Part shown: one piece after another, positions 12,117-49,772 of the stretch | How positions within the stretch are numbered: position 1 is the stretch's first letter | Layout: the number at the start of each line of letters is the position of its first letter | From: Bacteroidales bacterium | Lineage (GTDB): Bacteria > Bacteroidota > Bacteroidia > Bacteroidales > WCHB1-69 | Direction of reading: 5' to 3' | DNA length: 64,000 nucleotides | Assembly: GCA_017443175.1 (NCBI GenBank) | Contig: JAFSOZ010000003.1 | Location: 411,103-475,102 of the forward strand | Notes under the pieces: model-generated | Told to the model about the DNA's origin: nothing | Databases searched by the model: none | Seen by the model: the letters and a program-made list of their open reading frames with translations, nothing else | Translations under genes and position numbers: made by a program

Positions 12117-12144
12117 GTAGAGACGTGCCATGGCGCGTCTCTAC
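12117..12144. repeat. 28-bp palindrome, copy 1 (intergenic)
   Basis: Begins GTAGAGACG and ends CGTCTCTAC, with one mismatch between arms. It sits between the convergent thpR and purE genes. Its last base is the first base of the purE stop triplet (read on the minus strand), and the element supplies a second in-frame TAG. Four more 28-bp relatives are at 14532, 14786, 43891 and 48873. Confidence 0.85.
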
Positions 12145-12650
12145 TAATTCGCCTTGAACTTATAGCTCACCTCGGCCAAGTCGGCATTGGCCTTGACAAT
12201 TTTCTGCTTGAGATTCTGTTTGTGCAAGATCACTTTCTCGCGCATAGCGGGGTCTCCGGCGGCAAGAATTTGCATGGCCAAGATGGCGGCGTTCTGAGCG
12301 CCGTTGATAGCTACGGTAGCCACGGGTATGCCCGGTGGCATCTGCAGCATGGCCAGGGCAGCGTCCATGCCTTCCAATGAGGACTTGATGGGCACACCGA
12401 TCACGGGCAGCGGGGTCATGGCGGCAATCACGCCCGGCAGGTGCGCGGCCATGCCGGCAGCGGCAATGATCACCTCCACGCCGCGCGAGTGCGCGTTCTT
12501 GGCATATTCAGCCACCTCGTCCGGCGTGCGGTGCGCTGACAACGCTAACATCTCGAAAGGTATTTCATTGCTATCTAAAAACTTGCAAGCCGCCTCCATA
12601 ACCGGCAGGTCGGAGGTGCTTCCCATGATAATGCTTACTCGTGCTTTCAT
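12144..12650 (-). CDS. purE: 5-(carboxyamino)imidazole ribonucleotide mutase, class I PurE
   Basis: 168 residues. Converts N5-CAIR to CAIR in purine synthesis. Family marks: IIMGSTSDLPVM at the N terminus (the GSxSD nucleotide loop), LSAHRTPDE, AAGMAAHLPG and PLPVIGVPIKSS. Length is normal for class I. purK is not adjacent, so it acts with an unlinked synthetase. A -7 box lies at 12674-12681. Confidence 0.96.
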   Translation of the reverse strand: MKARVSIIMGSTSDLPVMEAACKFLDSNEIPFEMLALSAHRTPDEVAEYAKNAHSRGVEVIIAAAGMAAHLPGVIAAMTPLPVIGVPIKSSLEGMDAALAMLQMPPGIPVATVAINGAQNAAILAMQILAAGDPAMREKVILHKQNLKQKIVKANADLAEVSYKFKAN

Positions 12651-12673
12651 ATTTCGACTCGATTTTTAAAGCG

Positions 12674-12681
12674 CAAAAATA
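12674..12681 (-). promoter_or_regulatory. Promoter -7 box for purE
   Basis: TATTTTTG on the minus strand, 23 nt before the purE ATG at 12650. Confidence 0.65.
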
Positions 12682-12712
12682 AGAAAAAAAGGAATTAAAA
12701 ACAAAAGTATAA

Positions 12713-12937
12713 TCACGCATAATGATACCGTTCGCGATATTTGCGTAGCATCAGGAACGGCATTATCAGGTTGACGGCCGCAAAAGGCGTCTTGTCCACG
12801 AAATTGGAGACGAAAACGCCATCCACCACGCTGTATATCGAGGTGAATATCATCGTAGCGATAGTCGGCAAGGTAAACCGCAGCAGTTTGCGGTAGCCGA
12901 AATGGTCAGACAGTTGGATGGGTTGGTTTGTTTTCAT
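12713..12937 (-). pseudogene. MATE-family efflux transporter stub
   Basis: The 74-codon frame begins like a MATE transporter (FTLPTIATMIFTSIYSVVDGVFVSNFV, then FAAVNLIMPFLM, first two membrane segments). It then jumps to a short basic end LRKYRERYHYA that looks like a MATE C terminus. MATE proteins are about 440 residues, so some 370 codons appear deleted in frame. Its ATG overlaps the RND pump stop codon (ATGA), so it was the distal gene of that operon. It cannot transport anything in this form. Confidence 0.75.
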
Positions 12938-15900
12938 TGTTTCTCCTCCTTTCTTTCAATGGATTTGAACCGTTCCTGTAATTTCTGGAACACCGTAAAC
13001 AGCGCCGGCACGGTAACCAATAACCCTAAAGTGCCGAACAGCATACCGCCCAACACGCAGACACCGATGGTGCGACTGCCATTGGCACCTGCACCGGTGG
13101 CGAACATCAGGGGCAACATGCCGAAGATCATCGTCAGAGAGGTCATCAGGATGGGGCGCAGACGCTCCCTTGCGCTCTGCAGGGCGGCATCGCGAATGGA
13201 CAGCCCCTTTAACCGACCCTGCGAGGCGTATTCCGTAATCAGAATGGCGGTCTTCGCCAACAGGCCGACCAACATGATAAGGCCAATCTGCATATAAATG
13301 TTGTTTTCCACGCCAAAAAGCTTGGCGAACAGCAGACTGCCCGCCAAGCCGAAGGGCACCGACAGCATCACCGCCAGCGGAATGAAGAGGCTTTCGTACA
13401 AAGCAACCATCACCAGATAGACGAACAATGCGCTGATAATGAAGATGATGGCGATACGGTTTCCGGTACGGCTCTCCTCGCGGGTGATGCCGCTGAACTC
13501 CACGCTGTAGCCCACGGGCAGCTCCTTTGCCGCCACTTCCTGTATAGCTTTGATGGCGCTGCCCGTGCTGCCGCCCTGCGCCACATTACCACTCACATCA
13601 ATGCAACGGAACATATTGTGACTGCTCAGCGTTTGCGGCATATACTCTTTGGTGAGTGTAATAAACTGACTGATAGGTAGCATATTACCATCTTCCGAAC
13701 GAACAAAAAGCTGGTCAAGCGACTCGGGACGGGTACGGTCGGAAGGATGCAGCTGCGCGGTTACCTGATACACCTTTCCGTATTTGTTGAAGTTGGAAAT
13801 GTAGTCTCCGCCGAGATAGGCACCCAACTCGTTGAGAACCGTGGAGGGCGACACGCCCGCCTTCTTGCAGCGCGACACATCCACATCCACACGGTATTGC
13901 GGATAGTTGACATCGTAGCTGGAATAGATGTCGCCAATTTCCGGACGCTCTTGCAGTTTCTCCACAAAGCGGTCAGTAATTTCTTTCAAAGTTCTGACAT
14001 CCATACCGTTGCGGTCTTGCACCGAGAACTCGAAGCCACCACCTCCTCCATAACCCTCTATCATGCCCGGCTCCATTGCGAAGGATTCTGCCTCGCGCTC
14101 CTGCGCCAATATCTCGTTAATCTGCTCCATCACGCCTGTCGAAGAGTTATCGTAACCCTTACGTTGTTTCCACGGTTTGAGCTGCACAAAAATCTCCACG
14201 CCGTTGCTGCCCGCCCCGACACCCACTACGCCGCCAACTGACTCCACAGCAGGTAGTTCCTGAATCTGGTCGCTGACGCGGTTCATCACCTTTCGGGTCT
14301 TCTCCATCGTGTAGCCCGACGGCGTGTTGATTTCCACAAAAAGGGTGCCCAGATCTTCCGAGGGTACGAAGCCCGTGGGGACAATCTTGAAAAGCACCAC
14401 CATCAGTGCAATGGCGACAGCCACACTGGCAGCGACCACCCATTTGCGACGGAGGAGCCAATGGACCATGTTGGTGTAATGTTTTAACAGGGTATTGAAG
14501 GTCGTGGTGTAAACGGTACGGATTCGCGATTGTAGAGACGCACGGTCGTGCGTCTCTACCGACGACGGTTTCAAAATCAACGCACACAACGCCGGTGCCA
14601 ACGTCAAGGCATTCAGGAATGAAATGCCCACCGCCATCGTCAGACCGAATTGTTTAAAGAAGATGCCTGTGGTACCGCCCATAAACGACACAGGGATGAA
14701 GATGACAATAAACACCAAGGTCGTAGTGAACAGCGTGACGGAAAGACCGTTCATAGCCTCCTCCGTGGCTTTACGGGCGGAGGTTGTAGAGATGCGCCAT
14801 GGCACGTCTCTACTTTGCCTCGCCTTTACCGCTTCCACCACCACAATAGAGTCGTCCACCACCGTACCGATAACCAGCACCAGCGCGAAGAGCGTCAGCA
14901 GGTTGACAGAGAATCCCGCCATTTTCATAAAGGCGAAAGTGCCGATGAGCGACACCACGATACCGATGGCAGGAATCAGCGTGGCGCGGAAGTCCTGGAG
15001 GAAGAAGAAGACAACCACCAGCACCAGCAGGATGGCGATGATGAGCGTCACCACCACCTCGCGGATGGAGGCAAAGAGGAAGTCGTTGGTGTTGTCGAAG
15101 GTGACAATTTTGATGTCCTTGGGCAGCGATTGCTCCACCTCGTGGATGAGTTTGTCAATTTCGAGGTTGATCTTGGTGGCGTTGGAGCCGGCCACCTGAT
15201 GCACCGCTCCCATTACGCCCGGATGTCCGTTGATGCGGTTGGTGAAGGCATAATCGGACTGTCCCAACTCAATGTCGGCCACATCTTTCAGCCGCAGCTC
15301 TTCGCCAGTGGGCAGCGAGGCGATGACCAAATTTTCGAACTCGGATATTTCGGTTTTTCGCCCAGTATAGCGTAAGGAATACTGGAATACGTTGTCGGAG
15401 TTCTCGCCCAGTGCGCCCACCGAAACTTCTATGTTCTGTTCCGCTAACACTGCGCTGATGTCGCTTGGCATCAGGTTGTGACGGGCCATCACGTCGGGTT
15501 TGAGCCAGATGCGCAAGGCATATTGCGCACCCCACACCTCCACCTTACCCACACCGTTGATGCGCAAGATGGCGGGACGCAGGTTGTTGTAGAAATAGTT
15601 GCTGAGGAAGTTCTCGTCGTAGGTGCCGCCAGGACTCTCCAAAGCGATGATGCGGAGTTGTCCGGGCTGCTGTTTCTCGGTGGAGACACCGATTTGTAGC
15701 ACCTCGGCAGGCAACTGTCCCTGCGCCTGAATCACGCGGTTCTGCACGTTTACCGCCGCCATATCGGCATTGGCTCCCTGCTCGAAGTAGATGGTGATGC
15801 TGGCCGATCCGTTGCTGGCCGACGAGGTCATGTAGGTCATCCCCTCCACGCCATTGATGGCCTCCTCCAACGGCATAACCACGCTTTTCTGCACCGTTTC

Positions 15901-16074
15901 GGCACTCGCGCCCGGGTACGAAGCCCACACATAGATAGTCGGCGGCGCAATGTCTGGATATTTCTCCACCGGCAGCGACAGCAACGAAATCACCCCCAAC
16001 AGCACGATGAACACGCTGATGACGAGGGAGAGCAACGGCCGATGGATAAATGTCTGGGTATTCACGACTTTCAA
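12934..16074 (-). CDS. RND efflux transporter, inner-membrane pump (AcrB/HAE1 type)
   Basis: 1046-residue proton-driven RND pump. Proton-relay aspartates D407 and D408 fall in TVVDDSIVVVEA (TM4) and the TM10 lysine in LLAKTAILITEYA. The amphipathic start MKVVNTQTFIHRP and the SVPFGLAGSLL block are typical. Two 28-bp palindromes are embedded in frame, adding about 10 residues each: residues about 421-430 (between VVVEAVKA and RKATEEAMNG, cytoplasmic loop after TM4) and about 506-515 (after LILKPSS, loop after TM6). It follows the adaptor gene in one operon. No outer-membrane channel gene is present. With its adaptor frameshifted, the system may be inactive unless another adaptor serves. Confidence 0.95.
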   Translation of the reverse strand: MKVVNTQTFIHRPLLSLVISVFIVLLGVISLLSLPVEKYPDIAPPTIYVWASYPGASAETVQKSVVMPLEEAINGVEGMTYMTSSASNGSASITIYFEQGANADMAAVNVQNRVIQAQGQLPAEVLQIGVSTEKQQPGQLRIIALESPGGTYDENFLSNYFYNNLRPAILRINGVGKVEVWGAQYALRIWLKPDVMARHNLMPSDISAVLAEQNIEVSVGALGENSDNVFQYSLRYTGRKTEISEFENLVIASLPTGEELRLKDVADIELGQSDYAFTNRINGHPGVMGAVHQVAGSNATKINLEIDKLIHEVEQSLPKDIKIVTFDNTNDFLFASIREVVVTLIIAILLVLVVVFFFLQDFRATLIPAIGIVVSLIGTFAFMKMAGFSVNLLTLFALVLVIGTVVDDSIVVVEAVKARQSRDVPWRISTTSARKATEEAMNGLSVTLFTTTLVFIVIFIPVSFMGGTTGIFFKQFGLTMAVGISFLNALTLAPALCALILKPSSVETHDRASLQSRIRTVYTTTFNTLLKHYTNMVHWLLRRKWVVAASVAVAIALMVVLFKIVPTGFVPSEDLGTLFVEINTPSGYTMEKTRKVMNRVSDQIQELPAVESVGGVVGVGAGSNGVEIFVQLKPWKQRKGYDNSSTGVMEQINEILAQEREAESFAMEPGMIEGYGGGGGFEFSVQDRNGMDVRTLKEITDRFVEKLQERPEIGDIYSSYDVNYPQYRVDVDVSRCKKAGVSPSTVLNELGAYLGGDYISNFNKYGKVYQVTAQLHPSDRTRPESLDQLFVRSEDGNMLPISQFITLTKEYMPQTLSSHNMFRCIDVSGNVAQGGSTGSAIKAIQEVAAKELPVGYSVEFSGITREESRTGNRIAIIFIISALFVYLVMVALYESLFIPLAVMLSVPFGLAGSLLFAKLFGVENNIYMQIGLIMLVGLLAKTAILITEYASQGRLKGLSIRDAALQSARERLRPILMTSLTMIFGMLPLMFATGAGANGSRTIGVCVLGGMLFGTLGLLVTVPALFTVFQKLQERFKSIERKEEKQ
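14532..14559. repeat. 28-bp palindrome, copy 2 (inside RND pump gene)
   Basis: Perfect 13-bp arms (GTAGAGACGCACG / CGTGCGTCTCTAC) around 2 bases. Translated on the minus strand in frame as VETHDRASLQ. Confidence 0.9.
14786..14813. repeat. 28-bp palindrome, copy 3 (inside RND pump gene)
   Basis: Ends GTAGAGATG / CGTCTCTAC around a CCATGG centre, two imperfect pairs. It is read in a different frame from copy 2, giving SRDVPWRIST. Confidence 0.85.
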
Positions 16075-16091
16075 CTATTAATTATTATCTA

Positions 16092-17172
16092 TTAACTTTT
16101 AACTATTTTTGTTCCTTCCTCCACAAACCCCGCCCCTTTGGCTATAATCACATCTCCCTCTTGGAGACCGCTAATCACCATGTACTCTTTGCCGTTGTTC
16201 TGCGGTGACACTTGGACGATGGTGGAGACTGCCTTGCCGTCCACCACTTTCATCACATAGACCTTGTCCTGGATGCTGTAGGTGGCCTCCTGTGGGATGA
16301 CGATGGCGTTGTGCAGTTCGGTGGGGACAACGATTTTGCCCGTACCGCCACTGAGCAGCATTCCGTCGGGGTTGTCGAAGCGGGCGCAGACCGAGACGGC
16401 TCCTGTGCGCTCGTCCACCACGCCGCTGATGCTCTCCACACGGCCGGTATGCTCGTAAAGGGTGCCGTTGGGCAGTTGCAGCCGCAGTTCGGGCATTTGC
16501 CTTATCGCCGCTTCCATACTTTTGTGCTCGGAAAGGTACTGCATCACCGTTTTTTCCGTCATCGAGAAATAGACCCGCATCTGCCGGTTGTCGGCCACCA
16601 CGGTGAGTCCGTCCTGGATGGAAGGTCCCACGAGTTCGCCCTTGCGGTAGATGATTCGCCCCACTACACCGTTGGAAGGACTGCGGATTTCTGTGTAACT
16701 GAGATCGTTGCGGGCGGAGGTGAGGGCCGCCTTCGCTGATGCGAGGTTCGCTTTCGGCCAGCGACAGCTCGAATTCTGAAATAACCGATTTCTGCCGCAA
16801 ATTCTTCTTGCCGTTGTATTCCAACTGCACACGGGATAGGGCGGCCGTCATCATCTGCACATTGGCATTGGCCGACTCCACTGCCGCCCGACTGGGTGCA
16901 TCATCGAGACGGAACAGCAGTTGACCTTCGCGAACACGCTCACCCTCTTTCACATACACGCCCATCAAGTGGCCTTCCACACGAGGAATGATCTTGATGT
17001 CTTGGGCGCCATGGATAGAAGCAGGATATTCCGCATCTAAGGTGTAATCCTGCGCCGTGACCGTGAGCAGTTCATGGAATTCGGGCTCGTTTTGCTCCTT
17101 TTGCGCTTTATTCTGGCACGACACCATCAGGAGCAACGCCGCCGCCAATATCAATAATCTACTGATTCTCAT
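16092..17172 (-). pseudogene. RND periplasmic adaptor (MFP/AcrA type), frameshifted
   Basis: Lipoprotein adaptor that would bridge the RND pump to an outer-membrane channel. The first frame (from ATG 17172) gives a lipobox (LLLMVSCQNK), the barrel-sandwich half IIPRVEGHLMGVYVKEGERVREGQ and the first hairpin helix ending LSLAESE. The second frame continues LASAKAALTSARNDLSYTEIRSPSNGVV through to GTKIVKS at 16092. They join if one C of the CC pair at 16745-16746 is removed. A single-base insertion or a sequencing error explains it; all other parts are intact. The pump gene begins 18 bp downstream. Confidence 0.85.
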
Positions 17173-17210
17173 ATAATTACAAAACCTTATTTCAATTCTG
17201 TTTAATAATG

Positions 17211-17218
17211 CAAAAATA
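17211..17218 (-). promoter_or_regulatory. Promoter -7 box for the RND operon
   Basis: TATTTTTG on the minus strand, 38 nt before the adaptor ATG at 17172. It is divergent from the AraC gene promoter at 17283. Confidence 0.65.
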
Positions 17219-17282
17219 CCGTGCCGTAAGGGAACAAAGGTGTATGATAATGAACCAGTATTGTATGTTTTCGGAACTTTTG

Positions 17283-17290
17283 TATTTTTG
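17283..17290 (+). promoter_or_regulatory. Promoter -7 box, 4 nt before an AraC start codon
   Basis: TATTTTTG, then CCGC, then ATG at 17295. A TTG at 17261-17263 is about 19 bp upstream as a possible -33 element. The spacing predicts transcription starting at or near the A of the ATG. Confidence 0.6.
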
Positions 17291-17294
17291 CCGC

Positions 17295-18110
17295 ATGAAT
17301 GTTCCCATCCAAGAATATCACCACGGGGAAGAACTCGTGAAGTCCAACCTCAACGGGTTATGGCTTTGCCGTGTGCTAAAAGGCAGCATACGGGTGCTTT
17401 TTGAGCAGAAATCGTACAAATTAGCCGCCGGAACAGTGTTTGCCGTGCAAGAAGGCGCGACGTTCCGCGCGCAGTCGTCCACCCAGAACATGGTCTTGGA
17501 GGTTATGGACTTTGACGAATCGCTGATGAATGTCGTATATGCTTTGCTTGGGGCGGAGGCCGACATCGGGACGCTGGAAACGACCTTTTGGAGCGACACA
17601 ACGCTGGACGAGCCCTTTGGCCGAATGTTTGCCGCCGATTATGAGCTGCTTCGGACGGCTGTAGGACAGCCCGATCTCATCGCCCGCCACAAAATGATCA
17701 CCGCCAGTCTCGTCCACCTGTTGCTTTCCATTTTCAATGCGGTGGGAGAAGCCACCACTTCGTCGTCAGGCGATAACGGCAAACGTTCTCGTCAGCTGTT
17801 GAACCATTTTTTCGAGCTGGTCGGCGAAAACACTCCATCAGGATGCCGCAATATCACATTCTATGCTGACAAACTCTGTGTGTCAGAGCGTTATCTCTTC
17901 AAGGTCTGCAAAAAGGAAACCGGCAAAACACCGAAAGAACTCATCCATCAGTTTTTAATCGGCCAAATCAAGAACGCCTTGCTGACCACCGAAATGACCC
18001 ACCAGCAGATTGCCGACCAGTTCGGCTTCCCGGACCAGTCGGCTTTCGGGCAGTTCTTCAAGCGTCAGGAGGGGATGTCGCCTTCGGAATTCCGGAAGAG
18101 GTATAGGTGA
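17295..18110 (+). CDS. AraC-family transcriptional regulator, divergent from RND operon
   Basis: 271 residues from ATG 17295. The N-terminal half is a cupin-like sensor (VLKGSIRVLFEQKSYKLAAGTVFAVQEG). The C-terminal 100 residues are two helix-turn-helix motifs: FYADKLCVSERYLFKVCKKETGKTPKELI, then TTEMTHQQIADQFGFPDQSAFGQFFKRQEGMSPSEFRKRY. The frame could extend to 17208 but the -7 box at 17283 argues against it. It is encoded back-to-back with the efflux operon and is the natural candidate for its regulator; this is inferred from position only. Confidence 0.88.
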   Translation: MNVPIQEYHHGEELVKSNLNGLWLCRVLKGSIRVLFEQKSYKLAAGTVFAVQEGATFRAQSSTQNMVLEVMDFDESLMNVVYALLGAEADIGTLETTFWSDTTLDEPFGRMFAADYELLRTAVGQPDLIARHKMITASLVHLLLSIFNAVGEATTSSSGDNGKRSRQLLNHFFELVGENTPSGCRNITFYADKLCVSERYLFKVCKKETGKTPKELIHQFLIGQIKNALLTTEMTHQQIADQFGFPDQSAFGQFFKRQEGMSPSEFRKRYR

Positions 18111-18231
18111 TGCGTGTGTAGTGTAAACAATCCCGAGGCAACTACTTGCACCAATGAGATTTCTTTCGTTTTGGGAAAATCGCTTTGATCCTTCTGTCGT
18201 TCACACCGCGTATGTTCAACACAATCTTTGC

Positions 18232-18858
18232 TTAATCGCCCATTGGACCGAAAGCACTCTGACGGGTAAGTGGATAACCTGGTTTGCGACCGAGTTTCCA
18301 GTAAAGTGGCGAACGGAAGCTGAAGAAGAACACCACGGCAAACCATACCACGGCAATCACCCAGTCATACCACACGTACTGGCTGGCATCGAACACACCT
18401 CCGAAGAAGTAGCAGCAAGCGATAATGCCCAGTCCGATGGTGGTGATGAGACCTGGGTTGTAGCAGGCCTTGAGACGGATAGGGAAGATGACAAAGTGCA
18501 TGAGAACCTCTGCGAAGAGGAACATAAAAGCTGCTATCGTCATAAAGCGCACGCCCGGCAAAAAGAGTGGAAGGATGTACACCAGCAACAGAAAACCCCA
18601 GTTGCCGAACATCGAGCTGAGATTGTTGACACCCCATTTGGAGGAGTCGGGCTCGCTACTGCCCATCAGCACTTTCATACCGACCAAGGGGAACCCGCCT
18701 GGCCAGCCGAACTCCTCGAAGAAGTGGAGAAACAGCAACGCATTTGCGGCAAGAAGCAGTTTGGTGACGACATCCATAGGTACCAAAATAGCCACAAGGG
18801 CGAAAGCTCCGGCCAAGAAGACCGAAATGTTGTGCCAATTGTTGATTAAATTTTTCAT
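18232..18858 (-). CDS. HXXEE domain membrane protein
   Basis: 208 residues with about five hydrophobic segments. The family motif HxxEE appears as LHFFEEFGWPGGFP at about residues 44-57, with later conserved W and H positions (LMHFVIFPIRL). The family is a set of membrane proteins of unknown function, possibly metal-dependent through the H/E motif. Single gene with its own -7 box, between two plus-strand AraC genes. Confidence 0.85.
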   Translation of the reverse strand: MKNLINNWHNISVFLAGAFALVAILVPMDVVTKLLLAANALLFLHFFEEFGWPGGFPLVGMKVLMGSSEPDSSKWGVNNLSSMFGNWGFLLLVYILPLFLPGVRFMTIAAFMFLFAEVLMHFVIFPIRLKACYNPGLITTIGLGIIACCYFFGGVFDASQYVWYDWVIAVVWFAVVFFFSFRSPLYWKLGRKPGYPLTRQSAFGPMGD

Positions 18859-18913
18859 TGTTATCTGATTTCTAATTAGTTATACAATCTGAACAATCAC
18901 CTGTTTTATAAGG

Positions 18914-18921
18914 CAAAAATA
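18914..18921 (-). promoter_or_regulatory. Promoter -7 box for HXXEE gene
   Basis: TATTTTTG on the minus strand, 55 nt before ATG 18858. Confidence 0.55.
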
Positions 18922-18996
18922 TACTCTTTCCGAATTTCGGCAAAGAGCAATGCGTTTGGAGTATTGAGCAAAAGGTACGATATTTGAATTATTTTG

Positions 18997-19004
18997 TACT
19001 TTTG
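18997..19004 (+). promoter_or_regulatory. Promoter -7 box for AraC gene
   Basis: TACTTTTG, 21 nt before ATG 19026, giving an ordinary short leader. It is divergent from the HXXEE promoter. Confidence 0.6.
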
Positions 19005-19025
19005 CAGCTCTGAATATTGAGGATT

Positions 19026-19793: not shown

Positions 19794-19887
19794 ATCAAAG
19801 AGTAACTATCATCAATCAAAGCGAAGGGACTAGCAACTTACCTGAAACTTTTGCGGAACGTCAGCGGGGAAACGCCTTCGTTGCGCT

Positions 19888-20775: not shown

Positions 20776-20857
20776 AATATCTGTGTTTTTACATTTCAGA
20801 ACAATCAATATTAAAATTTAGAATATTTAAATCATTGCAAAATTCACTAAAACTCGG

Positions 20858-20865: not shown

Positions 20866-20943
20866 CATTTTTTTCAAATTGAAATGTATAAAATAGAACA
20901 CATTTTCTTGTTATGAGGACATTGGCATAACGCACAACAGGTT

Positions 20944-37566: not shown

Positions 37567-38181
37567 ATGAAATTCAAGAACATCATTATCGCAGTTCTGG
37601 CCGTGGTTATGGCCACCGGCTGCAACGGACAGAACAAAAACAGTAACGAACAAAAAACAAATTCCGGAAACATGAAAAAATCCATCGTCATTTTCTTCTC
37701 CCACGCGGGGGAAAACTATTCCGTCGGCGTCATCGACACGGGCAACACCAAGATCGTGGCCGACTACATCAGTGAAATCACGGGCGCCGACCAGTTCGAG
37801 ATCGTCACCCACAAATACGACGGCATGGCCTACACACCGCTCATCGAGCTGGCCAAGGAGGAGGCCCGCAAAGGCGAGCTGCCGCCTTACGAAGGCACCG
37901 CTCCGGACCTCAGCGGCTACGACACGGTCTATATCGGCGGTCCCGTGTGGTGGGGCACCTACCCGCAGATCATGTTCACGCTGTTCAAGGACATCAACCT
38001 CGACGGCAAGACCGTCATCCCCTTCACCACCCACGAGGGCAGCGGCTTAGCCTCTTGCGCCAAAGACGTACGGAAAGCCTTCCCGAAGGCCAACGTCACG
38101 GGCGAGTTCAGCATCTACGGCCACGAGGTGCGCGGCGGCAAGGCCAAGGTGGAAAAATGGCTGAAGTCAATTAGGAATTAG
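37567..38181 (+). CDS. Flavodoxin, lipoprotein-anchored
   Basis: 204 residues. Signal and lipobox (VVMATGC-NGQNK) precede a flavodoxin domain beginning KKSIVIFFSHAGENYSVG, with GYDTVYIGGPVWWGTYPQIM for the second FMN loop and a C-terminal AKVEKWLKSI. FMN-dependent electron carrier or quinone reductase placed outside the cytoplasmic membrane. The gene is nearly identical over its 3' half to 43813, which differs by an inserted 28-bp palindrome. Nine bp after the DUF362 gene. Confidence 0.92.
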   Translation: MKFKNIIIAVLAVVMATGCNGQNKNSNEQKTNSGNMKKSIVIFFSHAGENYSVGVIDTGNTKIVADYISEITGADQFEIVTHKYDGMAYTPLIELAKEEARKGELPPYEGTAPDLSGYDTVYIGGPVWWGTYPQIMFTLFKDINLDGKTVIPFTTHEGSGLASCAKDVRKAFPKANVTGEFSIYGHEVRGGKAKVEKWLKSIRN

Positions 38182-41237: not shown

Positions 41238-41288
41238 TGGAGCGAGCAATGTTTCGAAAGTGCAGTTGGCTGTCATAAACCCTCGCGG

Positions 41289-41461
41289 CCTACTTCAGCT
41301 GGAGCGGCAACACCGGGGCGGCGGCGAAACACATCATCAAGGCAACGCCCAAAAGCGCCCACCGCAACGGCATCTGCATCGTCACCAAGGAGATGGGCGG
41401 CCAAGGCATGGACAAGAAACATGGCCAGATCGACAAGTGGCTGAAGAAAATTGGATATTGA
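41289..41461 (+). pseudogene. Flavodoxin fragment with internal deletion
   Basis: The frame reads AYFSWSGNTGAAAKHII (flavodoxin FMN phosphate loop, first strand and helix), then jumps to a tail QIDKWLKKIGY ending at TGA 41459. The connecting stretch SAHRNGICIVTKEMGG does not match the middle of the neighbouring flavodoxins. No start codon. The family is suggested by the two ends only. Confidence 0.5.
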
Positions 41462-41497
41462 AGACCTTTGAAATGAACAAATTAATTGGATTTAGAT

Positions 41498-42349: not shown

Positions 42350-42373
42350 TCCTCTTGTTTCAAAACAACAAAA

Positions 42374-42841
42374 ATGAAGAAAGTAGCAGTCCCAAACTAT
42401 GGTAGATGCACCTTTCCGAAGACACTCTGCACTTTAATCATCATAACCCTCACCATGACTATGCAATCCCAAACCGACGACCGACAGCAAATCCGTCAGC
42501 TCTACGAGACCATGTACCAGGCCATGGTGGCGAAGGACACGGCGACCCTCAACCGTGTCTATGACAACGAGATGGTGCTCGTCCATATAACCGGTATGCG
42601 CCAGTCGAAAAAGGAGTACCTCGATGCCATCGCCGACGGCACGCTCAACTACTACACGGCGGTGCACGAGCAGACGGAGGTCACCGTGGAGGGCGACCGC
42701 GCCACGCTGACAGGGAGAAGCCGCGTGACCGCAGCGGTGTTCGGCGGCGGACGCCACACCTGGCCCCTTCAGCTCCGTTTCCAGCTCGTGAAGCGCGACG
42801 CGATGTGGCAGTTCACAGAGGCGAGAGCGAGCACATATTGA
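42374..42841 (+). CDS. NTF2-like (DUF4440) protein
   Basis: 155 residues. The N terminus has a hydrophobic export-like run (TLCTLIIITLTMTMQSQ). The domain from about residue 35 (DRQQIRQLYETMYQAMVAKDTATLNRVYDNEMVLVH...GRSRVTAAVFGGGRHTW) is the duplicate of 35183. In both places an aldo/keto reductase gene is adjacent, so the pair was probably duplicated together with order changed. Confidence 0.82.
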   Translation: MKKVAVPNYGRCTFPKTLCTLIIITLTMTMQSQTDDRQQIRQLYETMYQAMVAKDTATLNRVYDNEMVLVHITGMRQSKKEYLDAIADGTLNYYTAVHEQTEVTVEGDRATLTGRSRVTAAVFGGGRHTWPLQLRFQLVKRDAMWQFTEARASTY

Positions 42842-42951
42842 ATAAGGCAAAAGCAGTGGAAAAGTATGAAAAACTATCCCGCAGCTGTCTTTGCGTCGGC
42901 TGTCACTGCGCGGGTTAGTATTACAATATCGCAAATTAAAACGAAAAGATT

Positions 42952-43800
42952 ATGATATTCGACAGAAACGAAAAGAAACAAGTAGTGGCACTGTTGGGTG
43001 CCGGAAGTATGGGAACCGCCATCGTGCGCCGTATCGGGGCGGGCAAGAAAATCCTGTTAGGCGACATCAGCGAGGAAACGCTGAAACGCGTCGGCGAGGA
43101 TCTCAGCCGCTGCGGATACGATATGAAGACATTAGTAGTAAACGCTTTGCAGAAGGAAAGCATCGAGGCTTTTGCCCGGAAGGCGGCCGAACTGGGTCCC
43201 GTGATGTATTTCATTGACACGGCCGGTGCATCGCCCAACCAGGCCAGTCCGGAGCATATCGTCAACCTCGATATGGTGGGCACGGGCTACGCCGTGGATG
43301 CCTTCGGCAAAGTGATTGCCGAAGGCGGCGCAGGACTCCTCATCAGCAGTCAAGCGGCCTATATGTACCCGATTCCCAACGATATAGAATTGCAATTGGT
43401 AAACACCCCTACTGAAGAACTGAAAAATGTGAAATTCATCCAAGAGGTGGCCATGCAGAACAGCGGTTTCGCCTATATGATTGCCAAGCGGATGAACCAC
43501 CTGCAGGCGCAGCGTGCCGCAGCCACCACTTGGCGTAAACGTCGTGCCCGCATCAACTCCATCTCGCCCGGCGTCATCGTCACCCCGCTGGCTTACGATG
43601 AATTCCGGGCCAGCGGAGAAGGCTATCAGGCGATGATTGACGCTTCAGCCGCCCAGCGCACAGGTACCAGTGATGAGATTGCCGAGGCCGCCGCTTTCCT
43701 GTTGGGCGAGCACGCAAAGTTCATCACCGGCACCGACCTGCTCATCGACGGCGGCGTGATTGCGAGCATCCGTACAGGCGAATTCAAACTTTGGCTATAA
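42952..43800 (+). CDS. Short-chain dehydrogenase/reductase
   Basis: 282 residues. Cofactor loop VVALLGAGSMGTAIVRRI, acidic tip after LLGDIS, catalytic-type YMIAK (YxxxK) at about 181-185, and the C-terminal INSISPGVIVTPL...FLLGEHAKFITGTDLLIDGGV. This SDR subgroup of about 280 residues occurs beside flavodoxins and aldo/keto reductases. Twelve bp before the flavodoxin gene, so cotranscribed. Confidence 0.9.
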   Translation: MIFDRNEKKQVVALLGAGSMGTAIVRRIGAGKKILLGDISEETLKRVGEDLSRCGYDMKTLVVNALQKESIEAFARKAAELGPVMYFIDTAGASPNQASPEHIVNLDMVGTGYAVDAFGKVIAEGGAGLLISSQAAYMYPIPNDIELQLVNTPTEELKNVKFIQEVAMQNSGFAYMIAKRMNHLQAQRAAATTWRKRRARINSISPGVIVTPLAYDEFRASGEGYQAMIDASAAQRTGTSDEIAEAAAFLLGEHAKFITGTDLLIDGGVIASIRTGEFKLWL

Positions 43801-43812
43801 AAACAACGAATT

Positions 43813-44451
43813 ATGAACATCAAAAACATCCTCGTCGCAGTCCTTGTCGTGGTTTTCGCCACGGGCTGCAACGGACAGAATAAAAACAATGTGGAGACGT
43901 TTCAGGAAACGTCTCTACAGAACGAACAAACATCAAATTCCGGAAATATGAGTAAATCCATCGTCATTTTCTTCTCCCACGCGGGGGATAACTATTCCGT
44001 CGGTGTCATCGACACGGGCAATACAAAAATCGTGGCCGACTACATCAGTGAAATCACTGGCGCCGACCAGTTCGAGATCGTCACCCACAAATACGACGGC
44101 ATGGCCTACACACCGCTCATCGAGCTGGCCAAGAAGGAGGCCGCCGCAGGCGAGTTGCCGCCCTACGAGGGCGCTGCTCCCGACCTCAGCGGCTACGACA
44201 CCGTCTTCATCGGCGGTCCCGTGTGGTGGGGCACCTACCCGCAGGTGATGTTCACGCTGTTCAAGGACATCAACCTCGACGGCAAGACCGTCATCCCCTT
44301 CACCACCCACGAGGGCAGCGGCCTGGCCAGTTGCGCCAGCGACGTGCGGAAAGCCTTCCCGAAGGCCAAGGTCACGGGCGAGTTCAGCATCTACGGTCAC
44401 GAGGTGCGCGGCGGCAAGGCGAAGGTGGAGAAGTGGTTAAAGAGCCTGTAG
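43813..44451 (+). CDS. Flavodoxin, lipoprotein-anchored, with palindrome-encoded insertion
   Basis: 212 residues. Lipobox VVFATGC-NGQNK, flavodoxin domain from KSIVIFFSHAGDNYSVG, and the second FMN loop GYDTVFIGGPVWWGTYPQVM. Against the paralogue at 37567 the only large difference is VETFQETSLQ at residues 27-36 in the linker between lipid anchor and domain, encoded by a 28-bp palindrome plus 2 bp. Last gene of the run; a large inverted repeat follows. Confidence 0.92.
   Translation: MNIKNILVAVLVVVFATGCNGQNKNNVETFQETSLQNEQTSNSGNMSKSIVIFFSHAGDNYSVGVIDTGNTKIVADYISEITGADQFEIVTHKYDGMAYTPLIELAKKEAAAGELPPYEGAAPDLSGYDTVFIGGPVWWGTYPQVMFTLFKDINLDGKTVIPFTTHEGSGLASCASDVRKAFPKAKVTGEFSIYGHEVRGGKAKVEKWLKSL
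43891..43918. repeat. 28-bp palindrome, copy 4 (inside flavodoxin gene)
   Basis: Arms GTGGAGACGTTTC / GAAACGTCTCTAC around AG, one mismatch. Absent from the paralogous gene, where 30 bases are missing at this point and the flanking bases align. Confidence 0.92.
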
Positions 44452-44512
44452 AAGCGGTCTGGCATATCCATTGACGACCATACCATACAATGATAGGACT
44501 TAAAGAAAAATC

Positions 44513-44567
44513 AACCGTAAACGAGCGGAATCGGAAAATTTTTAAATGATTCCGCTCGTTTACGGTT
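44513..44567. promoter_or_regulatory. 20-bp perfect inverted repeat before COG1672 ATPase
   Basis: Arms 44513-44532 and 44548-44567 pair without mismatch around 15 bases. An A and a T run follow, so it can end flavodoxin transcription. It also ends 10 bp before the ATPase -7 box and covers the -33 region, so it may be an operator as well. Confidence 0.8.
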
Positions 44568-44577
44568 ATTTTTTTTT

Positions 44578-44585
44578 TATCTTTG
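44578..44585 (+). promoter_or_regulatory. Promoter -7 box for COG1672 ATPase
   Basis: TATCTTTG, 17 nt before ATG 44603. It excludes the longer frame starting at 44546. Confidence 0.65.
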
Positions 44586-44602
44586 CAAAAAAAATCAAGA
44601 CT

Positions 44603-46036
44603 ATGCTCATAGGAAGAGACAAAGAGAAGCAAATCCTGCAAAACGCTCTTACAGAAGAGTATTCACAGTTCGTCGCTGTGTATGGCCGTCGTCGCGTTGG
44701 CAAGACATTCCTGATCCGAGAGTCCTACGACTACAAATTCACTTTCCAATTCACAGGAGCGGCCAACACATCTTCCCGTAAACAATTGGCCCGCTTTCGT
44801 ATGGCACTGAAAGAGCACGGGCTGACCGATATGGCAAAGGTATTTGCTAACTGGATGACAGCGTTTTCTGAATTAAAACGCTACATAAACCTTCAGCCCG
44901 AGGGAAAGAAGATCATATTCCTCGACGAACTACCTTGGATGGATGCGCCGCGGTCGGGTTTTTTATCGGAGCTTGAATCTTTTTGGAACGGATGGGCTTC
45001 GGCAAGGAAAGATATCGTTTTTGTGGTATGCGGTAGTGCCACCTCTTGGATGGTAAAAAAAATCATCAAAAACAAGGGAGGCCTGCACAACCGACTCACA
45101 CACCGCATTGCCTTGAAACCATTCTCACTTCGTCTGTGCGAAGAACTGGTTCAATCGCGTGGTATCGAAATGACGCGGAAGCAGATACTGAACGGATATA
45201 TGATCTTCGGCGGCGTGCCCTACTATTGGAGTTTATTACAGAAAGGGCATAGTCTTACCCAAGAAATTGACCGTCTTATCTTCACGAACGATGGCGACAT
45301 GTATGATGAGTTCAGCATGTTGTATGCATCGCTCTTCAAGAAACCAGAACCATACATCAAAATCATCAGTTTGTTGGCAGGGAAAAAAGAAGGGATGACA
45401 CGAATAGAACTGATTAACAAAGGCGGATTGGAGGATAACGGTGCGTTGTCAAAGATACTGGACGACCTCGAATGGTGCGGTTTCATCCGCGGATATACCG
45501 TGATTGGCAAACAAGTGAAGGATGAGATCTTCCAACTTATTGACCACTACACCTTGTTTTACTATGAATTCATTCATGGAAAACGCCACGGGAAAAACTT
45601 TTGGCAAGCGATGGAAGGCAAGCCGCAATACAACAACTGGTGCGGAAGGGCATTTGAGCGGGTCTGCTTATGGCACACCGACCAGATAAAGCATAAAATC
45701 GGCATCAGCGGTGTACTCACCAACGAGTATGCTTGGCGTCACGTGCCTAAAGACCAATCCGCAGAGCCGAAATCCGAAGGTGTTCAGATTGACTTGCTCC
45801 TTGACCGCAGTGACGGAATTATTGACCTTTGTGAAATAAAGTATTCAAGTGACAAATATTCTATCACCGAAGCCTATCATGAAAAATTGAACAGGCGAAA
45901 AGCCGTTTTTGCAGAAGTGACAAAAACTAGAAAAGCCTTGCACACGGTGCTCATCACAACCTATGGCCTGGCAAAAAACGCATACGTCGGTGATATTCAG
46001 AATGAAATACAGTTAGACGATTTGTTCTCAGTGTAA
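44603..46036 (+). CDS. AAA-family ATPase with C-terminal DUF234 nuclease-like domain (COG1672 type)
   Basis: 477 residues. Walker A VYGRRRVGKTFLIRE at about 26-40, Walker B IIFLDELPWMDAP, strand VVCGSATSWM. C-terminal GVQIDLLLDRSDGIIDLCEIKYS gives the D...ExK arrangement. Paralogue of 2259, though diverged outside the motifs. It interrupts the redox island between a flavodoxin and an aldo/keto reductase and has its own promoter, so it is probably an independently inserted gene. Role unknown. Confidence 0.87.
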   Translation: MLIGRDKEKQILQNALTEEYSQFVAVYGRRRVGKTFLIRESYDYKFTFQFTGAANTSSRKQLARFRMALKEHGLTDMAKVFANWMTAFSELKRYINLQPEGKKIIFLDELPWMDAPRSGFLSELESFWNGWASARKDIVFVVCGSATSWMVKKIIKNKGGLHNRLTHRIALKPFSLRLCEELVQSRGIEMTRKQILNGYMIFGGVPYYWSLLQKGHSLTQEIDRLIFTNDGDMYDEFSMLYASLFKKPEPYIKIISLLAGKKEGMTRIELINKGGLEDNGALSKILDDLEWCGFIRGYTVIGKQVKDEIFQLIDHYTLFYYEFIHGKRHGKNFWQAMEGKPQYNNWCGRAFERVCLWHTDQIKHKIGISGVLTNEYAWRHVPKDQSAEPKSEGVQIDLLLDRSDGIIDLCEIKYSSDKYSITEAYHEKLNRRKAVFAEVTKTRKALHTVLITTYGLAKNAYVGDIQNEIQLDDLFSV

Positions 46037-46112
46037 TTGATGAGGACATAATTTTAACATAGTATTTGCGTCTTGCAAAAACAAAAAGGGTAATCAAAAG
46101 CATCCTGAAATT

Positions 46113-47078
46113 ATGAAATACACACAATTAGGAAACACTGGCATTGAAGTCAGCCGCATTTGCGTCGGCTGTATGTCGTACGGGGAGCCCTCGGAGGACT
46201 TCCACCTGTGGACTCTCAACCAGGAGGAGTCCACGAAGATGATCAAGCACGCCCTCGACCTCGGGGTGAACTTCTTCGACACCGCCAACGGCTATTCGCA
46301 CGGCACCAGTGAGGAGTTCTTAGGCAAAGCGCTGAAAGACCTCGGCGTCGCCCGCGACCAGGTGGTGCTCGCCTCAAAAGTCTATTTCAACGAGGGCAAG
46401 CTCTCCGCCGCGGCCATCCGTCGCGAGATCGACGGCACGCTGCAACGTCTTGGCAGCGACTACCTCGACCTCTACCAGATCCACCGTTTCGACTACGGCA
46501 CGCCCATCGAGGAGACGATGCAGGCGCTGCACGAGTTAGTGCGGAGCGGCAAAGTGCGTGCCATCGGTGCCTCGGCGATGTACGGCTACCAGTTCCACAA
46601 CATGCAGATCTGCGCCGAGCGCAACGGTTGGACGCTGTTCTCCACGCTGCAGAACCACTACAACCTCCTCTACCGCGAGGACGAGCGTGAGCTGATTCCC
46701 GTGGCGAAACAGTACGGCGTGTCGCTCATCCCTTACTCTCCCCTCGCCAGCGGACACCTCACCCGCAAGGAGTGGAATAGCGCGTCCAAGCGCAACGAGA
46801 CCGACAAGGTGATGCACAGCAAATACGACCACGCCATGGAGAACGACATGCAGATTGTCGCCCGTGTGGCGGAGGTGGCGGAGCGTCTCGGTGTGACGAT
46901 GACGGAAGTGGCGTTGGCCTGGCTGCTGAAGCGGGGTGTCGCCGCGCCCATCGTGGGAGCCACGAAAGTGCCGCACTTCAACGATGCGGTCCGCGCCCTG
47001 GAACTCGACCTCAGTGACGAAGATGCCACCTACCTCGAAGAGCCCTACAAGGCGCACGAGGTGGTGGGAGCGTTGTGA
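46113..47078 (+). CDS. Aldo/keto reductase, AKR11/YajO-like
   Basis: 321 residues, a different AKR branch from the three before it: MKYTQLGNTGIEVSRICVGCMSYGEP at the start, NFFDTANGYSHGTSEEFLG (D, Y), VLASKVY (K), YQIHRFDYGTPIEETM (H), and cofactor end LKRGVAAPIVGATKVPHFNDAVRAL. NADP(H)-dependent oxidoreduction of small carbonyls. A mini-hairpin array follows its stop codon. Confidence 0.93.
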   Translation: MKYTQLGNTGIEVSRICVGCMSYGEPSEDFHLWTLNQEESTKMIKHALDLGVNFFDTANGYSHGTSEEFLGKALKDLGVARDQVVLASKVYFNEGKLSAAAIRREIDGTLQRLGSDYLDLYQIHRFDYGTPIEETMQALHELVRSGKVRAIGASAMYGYQFHNMQICAERNGWTLFSTLQNHYNLLYREDERELIPVAKQYGVSLIPYSPLASGHLTRKEWNSASKRNETDKVMHSKYDHAMENDMQIVARVAEVAERLGVTMTEVALAWLLKRGVAAPIVGATKVPHFNDAVRALELDLSDEDATYLEEPYKAHEVVGAL

Positions 47079-47084
47079 GTGCTG

Positions 47085-47180
47085 TGAGCTCCGCTTTTGA
47101 TTAGCCTACGGCTGTTAGTTAGCTTCGCTGTTGATTAGCTCCGCTGTTAATGACTTCGTGTTAACATTCACTTATTAACA
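47085..47180. repeat. Mini-hairpin array, copy A
   Basis: Successive units of about 14-16 bp with tiny stems AGC-TTC-GCT, AGC-TCC-GCT, AGCC-TAC-GGCT separated by TGTTAGTT or TGTTGATT, ending CTTCGTGTTAACATTCAC. About 85 bp are shared with 60407-60500. No coding potential. It sits between an aldo/keto reductase gene and the first abiE promoter. Confidence 0.7.
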
Positions 47181-47203
47181 CGAAGTCACCAGCTTTCCGT
47201 TTC

Positions 47204-47241
47204 ATTCAAGAAAAGTTGTATCTTTGCAGCGTCTTTTGAAT
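47204..47241 (+). promoter_or_regulatory. Promoter/operator of abiE copy 1
   Basis: ATTCAA (47204-47209) and TTGAAT (47236-47241) flank the -7 box TATCTTTG (47219-47226). AbiEi antitoxins studied elsewhere repress by binding inverted repeats in their promoter; this is the matching site by position. Confidence 0.6.
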
Positions 47242-47252
47242 AAAATGAGATA

Positions 47253-47873
47253 ATGACCTACTTGGAGTTCAGGGAACAGTGGCACGGGATGGGATGTTTC
47301 AACGTCTATCAAATCCGTGCATGGAAGCCGGGATTCGACCGAAGCAACTTCACACGCTGGGTGAAGCGGGGCTATCTGTCGAAACTGCGGCAGGACTGGT
47401 ATGCTTTCAGCGACCTGAAGGGCACTCCCGAGATGGCGCGTTTCATAGCGCAGCGCATCTACACGCCGTCGTACATCAGCCTGCACTACGCCCTGTCGTT
47501 CTACGGCATCATTCCCGAGGCGGTGACCGACATCACCTGCGTCACCTCTAACCGCACAGCGGCCTACCACAACGACTTCGGCCGCTTCAGCTACCAGACC
47601 GTCAAGCCCGATCTTTTCTTCGGCTTCCGCCAGATGCCCGTTTCGCCTCAAGGCAGCTACATGTTAGCTTTTCCGGAGAAGGCCATCCTCGACCTGCTTT
47701 ACCTCTACCCGCAATACAACACCGCCGAGGCCTTGTTGGAGTTGCGTTTCGACGAATGGTGGATGCGGGAGGAACTGGACAAGGATCGACTGACGACTTA
47801 CGCAACGCAGAGCGGCAACAAAGCGCTGCAAGAACGAATACAATTGTTGATGAAAACTTATACAGATGATTGA
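47253..47873 (+). CDS. abiEi: AbiEi-family antitoxin, copy 1
   Basis: 206 residues. N-terminal winged-helix region (YQIRAWKPGFDRSNFTRWVKRGYLSKLRQDWYAFSD), then the AbiEi core (YISLHYALSFYGIIPEAVTDITCVTSNRT...KPDLFFGF, FPEKAILDLLYLYP). Type IV antitoxin that represses its operon and counteracts the AbiEii nucleotidyltransferase toxin. Overlaps the toxin gene by 8 bp. Copy 2 at 61835 differs at 10 of 206 residues. Confidence 0.9.
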   Translation: MTYLEFREQWHGMGCFNVYQIRAWKPGFDRSNFTRWVKRGYLSKLRQDWYAFSDLKGTPEMARFIAQRIYTPSYISLHYALSFYGIIPEAVTDITCVTSNRTAAYHNDFGRFSYQTVKPDLFFGFRQMPVSPQGSYMLAFPEKAILDLLYLYPQYNTAEALLELRFDEWWMREELDKDRLTTYATQSGNKALQERIQLLMKTYTDD

Positions 47874-48654
47874 TTTACAGTCCATATTGGCCTACTATCC
47901 ACCGCAACTTGCCGCGAATGCCGCTTTCCACAAGCACATCTTGAAGGAATACATTAAGCTGTTGGCGTTGGAACACCTTTCGCAATCGCCCTACGCGCCC
48001 AAATTGGTGTTCATCGGCGGAACCAACCTGCGCCTTGTCCTCGGATTAGACCGTTTCTCCGAGGATTTGGACTTCGACTGCAAGCGACTGACGGCTGACG
48101 AGTTTGTCTCGATGACCGACGCGTTGGTCGAGCACCTTCGACTCAACGGTTTGCGCGTGGAGCTGCGCGACAAGGAGAATCCCCGGTTGACGGCTTTCCG
48201 CCGCAACATCTACTTCCCGGAACTGCTGTTCGACCTAAATCTCACCGGTCATCGGGAGGAAAGGTTTTTGATGAAGATCGAAGCCCAGGACCAAGGGGTG
48301 GACTACATACCGCAGACGGCGATGGTCAGCCGCAACGGCTTCTTTTTCCCCGTGACGGTTCCGGCCAAGGGAACCATGCTCTCCATGAAACTTGCGGCAC
48401 TGCTGGCCCGGGGCAAAGGACGCGACTTCTACGACACCATTTTCCTCTGGCAACAGACCGACCCCGACTACGAATTCCTTCGCCAACGGTGTGGGATCGA
48501 CAGTCCCCAAATGTTGAAGAAAGCGCTATCCGACAAACTTGACACCACTGACCTTGAACTAAAGCAGAAAGACTTCGAACATCTGCTCTTCAACCCTTCG
48601 CGCAGCGCACAGATACTGCATTTCAAGCAATTTATAGACAGCAAATTAGAATAA
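47866..48654 (+). CDS. abiEii: AbiEii-family nucleotidyltransferase toxin, copy 1
   Basis: 262 residues. Nucleotidyltransferase core VFIGGTNLRLVLGLDRFSEDLDFD (GGT...L and RFSxDLDFD), then MKIEAQDQGVDY and LSMKLAALLARGKGRDFYDTIFL, the K/D positions of the AbiEii/AbiGii family. Abortive-infection and plasmid-stabilising toxins of this type block growth by nucleotide transfer. All motifs are intact. Copy 2 at 62448 differs at 11 of 262 residues. Confidence 0.92.
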   Translation: MIDLQSILAYYPPQLAANAAFHKHILKEYIKLLALEHLSQSPYAPKLVFIGGTNLRLVLGLDRFSEDLDFDCKRLTADEFVSMTDALVEHLRLNGLRVELRDKENPRLTAFRRNIYFPELLFDLNLTGHREERFLMKIEAQDQGVDYIPQTAMVSRNGFFFPVTVPAKGTMLSMKLAALLARGKGRDFYDTIFLWQQTDPDYEFLRQRCGIDSPQMLKKALSDKLDTTDLELKQKDFEHLLFNPSRSAQILHFKQFIDSKLE

Positions 48655-48659
48655 TAACA

Positions 48660-49772
48660 ATGAAAAAACTCATCATCCTTGCCCTCGCGGCGCTGACACT
48701 GGCCGCCTGCGGCAACAAGCAAGAAACAAAAAACAACGAGAATATGAAACAAGAACTGAACCTCACGCAGGAGTGGGATAAGGTGTTCCCCCTCAGCGAC
48801 AAAGTGAACCACCGCAAGGTGACGTTTGAAACACAATACGGCCTGACCTTGGCCGCAGACCTTTACACGCCCGTAGGGGCGAATAATGATTCGCCCACAC
48901 GTCTCCCCGCCATCGCTGTGAGCGGTCCCTTCGGAGCTGTGAAAGAGCAGAGCAGCGGTCTTTATGCCATGCGCATGGCTGAGCGTGGTTTCGTGGCATT
49001 GGCTTTCGACCCGTCATATACGGGTGAGAGCAGCGGCGAACCCCGTCGCACGGCCTCGCCCGACATCAACACCGAGGACTTCATGGCTGCCGTTGATTTC
49101 CTGTCGCAGTTAGAAAATGTGGATCCCGAGCGCATCGGCATCATCGGCATCTGCGGCTGGGGCGACATCGCCCTGAACGCCGCCGCTGCCGACACCCGCA
49201 TCAAGGCCACCGTGGCCAGCACGATGTACGACATGACCCGCATCAGCGGCAACGGCTACTACGACAGCGACAACAACGAGGAGGCCCGTCACGCCGCCCG
49301 CGAGGCAATGGCCAAGCAGCGTCTCGCCGACCCATTGGCCATGGCCGGCGGTGTCATCGACCCGGTACCCGACGATGCCCCGCAGTTTGTGAAGGACTAT
49401 CACGCCTACTACAAGACCCCGCGCGGCTACCACGTGCGCAGCGGCAACAGCAACGACGGCTGGCGTGTCATCGGCACACAGGCCTTTGCTAACAGCCGTT
49501 TCCTCTACTATATCAATGAGATACGCTCAGCCGTCCTCGTGATGCACGGCGAGAAGGCCCACAGCCGCTACTTCGGCGAGGCGGCCTACCACTACATGGT
49601 GGATGGCAAGGCCGAGGGCTACAACTTCATCGGCAAGACGAATCCCAATCCCGACAACAAGCAGCTGCTCATCATCCCCGGTGCCACCCACTGCGACCTC
49701 TACGACGGCGGCGAGGGCAACTACATCCCGTGGGACACGCTGGCGGAGTTTTTCGGGAAGAATCTTAAATAG
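48660..49772 (+). CDS. Alpha/beta-hydrolase lipoprotein with cysteine nucleophile
   Basis: 370 residues. Lipobox TLAAC-GNKQ. Dienelactone-hydrolase-like domain: oxyanion region AIAVSGPFGAVKEQSSGLYA, nucleophile elbow GICGWGD with C165 in place of serine, and histidine in PGATHCDLYDGG. Residues 72-81 (VGANNDSPTR) are encoded by a 28-bp palindrome lying between DLYTP and LPAIAVSG. Starts 5 bp after the abiEii stop codon, so an AbiE module appears to sit directly in front of it. Substrate unknown. Confidence 0.9.
   Translation: MKKLIILALAALTLAACGNKQETKNNENMKQELNLTQEWDKVFPLSDKVNHRKVTFETQYGLTLAADLYTPVGANNDSPTRLPAIAVSGPFGAVKEQSSGLYAMRMAERGFVALAFDPSYTGESSGEPRRTASPDINTEDFMAAVDFLSQLENVDPERIGIIGICGWGDIALNAAAADTRIKATVASTMYDMTRISGNGYYDSDNNEEARHAAREAMAKQRLADPLAMAGGVIDPVPDDAPQFVKDYHAYYKTPRGYHVRSGNSNDGWRVIGTQAFANSRFLYYINEIRSAVLVMHGEKAHSRYFGEAAYHYMVDGKAEGYNFIGKTNPNPDNKQLLIIPGATHCDLYDGGEGNYIPWDTLAEFFGKNLK
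48873..48900. repeat. 28-bp palindrome, copy 5 (inside hydrolase gene)
   Basis: GTAGGGGCGAAT-AATG-ATTCGCCCACAC: same length and GTAG start as copies 1-4 but a different arm sequence, so a second subtype. Confidence 0.75.

Follow-up and report, generated by a model that had tools for sequence, protein, structure and literature searches.

Palindromes of 28 bp within and between genes of a Bacteroidales genus: probable REPs of a RAYT family, with differing centres at shared sites

The window analysed here is a stretch of 64,000 nucleotides from contig JAFSOZ010000003.1 (positions 411,103 to 475,102) of Bacteroidales bacterium assembly GCA_017443175.1, an incomplete genome (G000; 1.37 Mb in 14 contigs, 59% complete). 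It contains five copies of a 28-bp palindrome, four of which lie in frame inside Pfam-supported genes, and the subject of this analysis is the family to which these 28-mers belong, its probable relation to the REP-associated tyrosine transposases (RAYTs; REP, repetitive extragenic palindrome), and the variation of its inner 10 bases, here called the centre, between the two arms.

The first copy (12117..12144; centre TGCCATGGCG, the type of the genome's own RAYT) is intergenic, standing between convergent genes for a LigT-like protein (11553-12110, + strand) and AIR carboxylase (12144-12650, − strand), and its final base forms a 1-base overlap with the AIR carboxylase stop codon. Two copies lie in an RND efflux pump gene (ACR_tran; 12934..16074, − strand): that at pump site A (14532..14559, centre CACGGTCGTG) is read as VETHDRASLQ in the loop after PALCALILKP, and that at pump site B (14786..14813; centre CGCCATGGCA, also the own-RAYT type) as SRDVPWRIST in the loop after SIVVVEAVKARQ. 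From the topology of AcrB we take both loops to be cytoplasmic. The fourth copy (43891..43918, centre TTTCAGGAAA, left end GTGG) gives VETFQETSLQ in the N-terminal linker of a flavodoxin (Flavodoxin_4; 43813..44451, + strand), of which a paralogue without a 28-mer lies at 37567..38181 (+ strand). The fifth (48873..48900), of a second type (GTAGGGGCGAATAATGATTCGCCCACAC), gives VGANNDSPTR in an alpha/beta hydrolase (Peptidase_S15/DLH-like; 48660..49772, + strand), where empty orthologues encode KDANGK or similar residues. The palindromes are given without strand; the identities of the pump, flavodoxin and hydrolase genes are backed by Pfam. All five copies and the VET...SLQ and SRDVPWRIST peptides had been described in an earlier note made from the sequence alone, and they were recovered as described. 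At the equivalent of the hydrolase site (window 48873), loci L091, L092 and L105 have an unrelated GC-rich repeat (GGCTCCCTCCCC...GGGAGGG), and at the equivalent of pump site B (window 14786) locus L134 (isolate RUI002) has a different, longer repeat-like insert, in frame. The closest relatives found by the pump gene are Bacteroidales metagenome-assembled genomes (MAGs), many with a ruminant origin in their record titles; window positions 42571-47674 and 47700-50200 are 100% identical to contigs of G009, which is classed as another species of the genus.

The family is dispersed both in this genome and in its relatives, where a count had been proposed in the earlier note. With exact arms GTAGAGAC and GTCTCTAC and a spacer of 8-16 allowed, 16 places were found in the 1.37 Mb, all of them 28 bp long, and a reversed-pattern control gave 0; all 16 exact-arm copies in the stretches of the genome that were read have a spacer of 12. 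Allowing one mismatch gave 25 places (control 0) and allowing three gave 51, including chance matches among the weakest because the control then gives 12; 47 copies were left after a palindrome filter in the stretches read. Among the window copies, those at 12117 and 14532 fit the arm pattern exactly, those at 14786 and 43891 have one mismatch, and that at 48873, which ends in CACAC, has two. Every one of 40 genomes of the genus carries the family, with 6 to 309 copies each (at most one mismatch; control 0 or 1), and exact arms that enclose ten free bases occur in 37 of the 296 genomes of a phylum sample (control 0 or 1). The phylum figures for 28-mers and RAYTs, the copies of particular centres in genomes G013 and G002, and the orthologous-site alignments refer to the matches listed. 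The 5′ end is GT[AG]G and the 3′ end its complement, so that the family ends in GTAG/CTAC, with mutated ends in some copies. In the centre, four or five of the five possible pairs form in 15/15 copies of the own genome. Contigs of IMG/VR, used for centre pairing only, yielded 109 stretches (L279-L387) with exact-arm 28-mers, comprising 145 copies and 44 distinct centres, and four or five centre pairs form in 127/145. A literature lookup by the letters of the repeat gave no related paper, by title, among the matches listed.

Fifteen of the 47 own-genome copies lie within open reading frames that match a Pfam family or, in one case, RAYT models below the cut-off; for this count the Pfam match need not span the element, and copies at L211:14031 and L204:2070, at most five residues from a possible start, were omitted. 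The hosts include ketoacyl synthase, GH97, GH2 and GH53-like enzymes, an S41 peptidase, a glucosaminidase and sorting-domain proteins. Genic copies lie in the two stop-free frames: 13 are in the VET...SLQ frame (standard type), two in the SRD...ST frame, and none of the 15 in the frame that contains TAG, which agrees with the use of open frames claimed earlier; the two open frames are used unevenly (13 vs 2, p 0.007). From their positions the 28-mers look to sit in tolerated loops of proteins. The in-frame copies are real, as the earlier note had it; genic and RAYT-internal REPs are already described in the accessible text of PMC3733652 and PMC6006769.

The trail to an enzyme leads from an in-frame copy in an open reading frame around L198:3529, which gives a weak Y1_Tnp match (E 6e-4, under the cut-off). 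Its relative in genome G062 (L262:5877-6419, 180 residues) has one 28-mer inside, one five bases past its stop codon and two upstream of its start, and the RAYT gene of the own genome (G000:C6:8296-8835) likewise has one five bases 3′ of the stop codon and one in frame inside. Both the L198 frame and the G062 protein match NF047646 (REP_Tyr_transpos) with E 8e-18, and the E. coli TnpArep structure 4er8 is matched both by the G062 protein and, with E 6e-10, by the alignment profile of the family. Both histidines of the H-x-H motif, the WQ and the tyrosine are invariant in 12 RAYT sequences; compared with the motifs NH[IFV]H and YIxNNP, these sequences have N or D before the HuH motif, and many have YIENNV, not NP. 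A RAYT match is present in 23/40 genomes of the genus. The 30 loci returned contain 28 distinct RAYT genes (49 matches were listed, further places being mostly weaker). In 22 of these genes a 28-mer lies within the gene or no more than 600 bases away, and in 15 of the 28 it is inside the open frame; the remaining six have a 29-mer or a GGACGCG variant nearby, so that all 28 genes are REP-flanked only under looser criteria for these six. The search for a REP-type tyrosine transposase that had been suggested earlier associates the family with RAYT. A strict scan found a double-foot palindrome at 21/28 RAYT genes vs 0/17 other Y1 loci, these controls being chosen by the authors (two own proteins were tested and are IS200-type, the rest were assigned by PF01797 score, and L218 is weak). 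In the phylum sample, RAYT matches occur in 33/37 genomes with 28-mers vs 91/259 without (p 2.5e-10). Of 29 phylum loci returned, 21 have a double-foot palindrome near or within the match and 18 have it within (counted whatever the frame); 25 of these palindromes are 28 and five are 29 bases long, where lengths of 26-32 were allowed.

Each RAYT clade is paired with its own inner 10 bases. Most RAYT loci carry a single centre type, in the flanks as well as inside the gene: CGCCATGGCA in G062, G000 and G022, CAAAATTTTG in five genomes, GTGTGCACAC in G004, and CACGGCCGTG in G004 and G015. On a RAYT tree built without the insert columns, 14 centre types require 13 changes, the minimum possible, and 300 shuffles required at least 18, with centre labels that were set post hoc after the flanks had been viewed, variants at L400, L401 and L409 merged, and second types beside some genes passed over. 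Two RAYTs that share a centre are at least 62% identical, and identity does not exceed 62% where the centres differ (both figures to the nearest percent). The arms GTAGAGACG...CGTCTCTAC are common to nine of the 14 centre types.

At shared sites, the centre type can differ from that of relatives at an unaltered position and length, the arms being little changed. In all, 127 distinct elements of the fetched loci were compared, in 188 orthologous-site pairs at 16 sites (two groups joined as one). The centre differs between species at five or more of its ten positions at 4/16 sites, namely pump site A, pump site B, the flavodoxin site and L264:8086/L265:2366, where the best flank identities of exchanged pairs are 93, 96, 98 and 97%, respectively. 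Between L110 and L111 the flanks are 93% identical and the arms identical, and the centre differs at 10/10 positions; between L264 and L265, with flanks 97% identical and identical arms, six centre bases differ. In addition to these four sites, L198:18052 is a 28-mer of the GGGCGAAT type where G023 has the GAGACGCAT type (flanks 96 and 88-89%). Over the 188 pairs, the number of centre differences is bimodal, with 0-2 in 83 pairs, 3-5 in six and 6-10 in 99. In the 23 pairs with a flank identity of 95% or above, flanks diverge by 3.1%, arms by 4.3% and centres by 23%, and 30% of these pairs are exchanged. The exchanged centre is found elsewhere in its own genome, in seven further copies in G013 (50 of 95 places listed) and in two in G002 (25 of 63 listed). 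Two flavodoxin alleles have the decayed arm GCCGAGACG in common and centres that differ at 7/10 positions, a pattern that favours a tract within the element, although recombination between orthologous alleles could also give it. No local homogenisation of centres was evident by eye, neighbours 93 bases apart in G013 being different. These comparisons of sequence suggest that the occupant of a site may change from one variety of 28-mer to another without a change of position. The RAYT/REP system itself is known, and the novelty seems to lie in the in-place exchange; a limited look at open papers did not find in-place exchange of such REPs. Gene conversion of REPs is reportedly the subject of a 1988 title by Higgins.

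Taken together, the 28-mers are probably double-foot REPs of a RAYT family (TnpA_REP; HuH/Y1 single-strand endonucleases) like subclass 2.4, with centres that would be specific to RAYT clades and exchangeable in place; we give this reading a probability of roughly 0.85. A RAYT would act on the folded single strand at GTAG/CTAC, spreading REP copies, and would read the centre. Exchange might take place between hairpins, through strand exchange that the RAYT drives, or through ectopic conversion for which the common arms serve as primer.

Several results weigh against this reading. The NF047646 scores of the L198 and G062 proteins, 64.8 and 64.6 bits, are below the curated cut-off of 80 (both proteins carry the 10-residue insert). 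Of random windows drawn from the genus loci, which were selected for elements, a fraction of 0.21 already contain a double-foot palindrome; one palindrome in the strict scan of the genus is 26 bases long. No RAYT match was found in 17/40 genus genomes, some with up to 180 copies, and copy number shows no difference with and without RAYT (p 0.24); gaps in MAGs or loss of RAYT could account for these 17 genomes. RAYT flanks are impure, CATAATTATG standing beside three CAAAATTTTG genes and CGGTGCACCA beside a GTGTGCACAC gene (L414). The 188 pairs share few sites and genomes and are not independent, and 12/16 sites are without such exchange, including the hydrolase site, where six genomes have the same centre. 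Where a RAYT type is known, the centre at an exchanged site is often unlike that of the RAYT read in the same genome, as in G002, which has TTGCGCGCAA at its pump sites and CGATTAATCG at the RAYT that was read. The RAYT-less genomes and the ill-fitting exchanged centres weigh in particular against a present-day role of the resident RAYT.

Other origins of the 28-mers have to be considered. A mobile element that adds exactly 30 bases, 28 plus a 2-bp target duplication, had been proposed in the earlier note, and the flavodoxin paralogue at 37567 is indeed 30 bases shorter at this place; this difference is seen against the paralogue only, and other element-free flavodoxins have linkers that vary. 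At the other three genic sites the length does not come near 30 bp. Empty orthologues are about three codons shorter at pump site A (about +9 bases with the element) and six codons shorter at pump site B (+18 bases), with local residues replaced at both, and at the hydrolase site the window's 30 bases stand in place of 18 (AAGGATGCTAACGGCAAA in some of the orthologues), which lengthens the gene by 12. Gains that vary in this way (about 9, 12 and 18 bases), together with local replacement and no duplication seen, therefore leave no 28+2 rule, and such an element is scarcely credible. Of the wider claim of insertion, the existence of empty orthologues stands; simple addition does not account for everything, as local sequence is replaced, and at several sites species share a position while the inner 10 bases differ. 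That the net changes keep the frame is as selection would require. Mobilisation by the other Y1 genes common in the genus, those with strong PF01797 matches (IS200-type where tested), is also very improbable. Copy density does rise with the number of PF01797 matches (rho 0.66, 36 genomes), and such a match is present in 34/37 positive phylum genomes vs 176/259 others (p 0.002); however, density correlates about equally with genome size (0.61), both PF01797 matches of the own genome pass the IS200 model, different repeat arrays accompany several of these genes, and a double-foot palindrome lies within 600 bases in 0/17 of their loci. These genes are accordingly disfavoured as the mobilising enzyme.

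The differing centres themselves might have arisen in two other ways. If the loops were hotspots, each lineage could have received its own 28-mer independently, with no exchange, and the loops do tolerate several repeat families, as the GC-rich repeat at the hydrolase site of three genomes and the other repeat at pump site B (L134) illustrate. We nevertheless consider independent insertion unlikely, because species whose centres differ have base-identical junctions at pump site B, the flavodoxin site and L264/L265, the residues lost at pump site B relative to empty orthologues are lost alike, and the two flavodoxin alleles with 7/10 centre positions different have a decayed arm in common. Alternatively, template switching could carry single mutations of the centre over to the opposite arm; through this self-correction of the hairpin the centre would drift and yet stay palindromic. 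The pairing of centres far above chance (15/15 and 127/145) fits such a process, as do reversed GCCATGG types that are two changes apart between species and sister RAYT clades that may have similar centres (CGATTAATCG, CGATAAATCG). Against it, intermediates are few (3-5 differences in 6/188 pairs); the same few discrete types recur at unrelated loci, and the arms are far less variable than the centres. We regard drift as a decidedly poor candidate.

The observation is sound, and its main lines are explained by known RAYT biology. Subclass 2.4 (Bertels group 4) is described in the accessible part of PMC6006769 as abundant in Cyanobacteria and Bacteroidetes, with double-foot REPs that also occur in frame inside tnpA_REP between the HuH and Y motifs. 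The present family resembles that description in its H-x-H and WQ, comparable length, GTAG and CTAC as opposite ends, Bacteroidetes hosts, partly in the Y motif, and in REPs that flank the gene and lie in frame inside it between the HuH and Y motifs, a likeness of described features. The length of mostly 28 or 29 bp, the centre that tracks RAYT clade and the comparison of REPs at orthologous sites go beyond the subclass description as far as that part of the paper extends. GTAG-tagged palindromes within open reading frames, or giving neighbours their TAG stop codons, appear in the available text of PMC3733652, as does recB of two Xanthomonas with different REPs at about the same site; unlike the present 28-mers, those GTAG tags are unpaired at one end, and Bacteroidetes are not among the phyla that this text names for GTAG repeats. 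In the REP orthoswitch outlined in sections of PMC3686654, orthologous RAYT genes have different flanking REP classes and new variants spread after the switch, whereas the old REPs are assumed to stay and decay; in the present system the other variety stands at the same base. Rickettsia palindromic elements are also in-frame palindromes in genes (PMC3733652, PMC6649704, in the passages available), but membership of that family was rejected, since those of R. conorii have a CGTC terminus (same passages of PMC3733652) and the present 28-mers end in GTAG/CTAC.

How RAYTs spread REPs is stated as an open question in the available text of PMC8266576. What gives the present case its value is that centres match RAYT clades and that exchange is seen at shared sites: in this genus RAYT clades can be set beside their matching centre types, and there are sites with a differing occupant and flanks 93-98% identical, so that the choice of REP by its centre and the action of RAYT on occupied sites become testable. 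It is conceivable, though we hold it tentatively and at less than even odds, that most 28-mers, through their common arms, can be used as landing pads by several RAYT clades, which would overwrite the 10-base tags of their rivals in place, a homing-like competition. If so, the spreading unit would be the 10-base centre, and peptides of host proteins (VET-xxxx-SLQ) would be rewritten as a by-product.

Two further arrangements were noted. Some other Y1 genes of the genus, at L215:1612-1841, L223 and L220, stand amid different hairpin-repeat arrays with a period of 51-52 bases, also ending in GGTAG. At L262:4345-5871, L265:11472-12995 and L266:6844-8370, a stretch of about 1.5 kb is bordered on each side by a 28-mer; it contains an open reading frame of 424 residues (read in L262), shows 91-95% identity between several relatives and the own genome, and may move as a unit.

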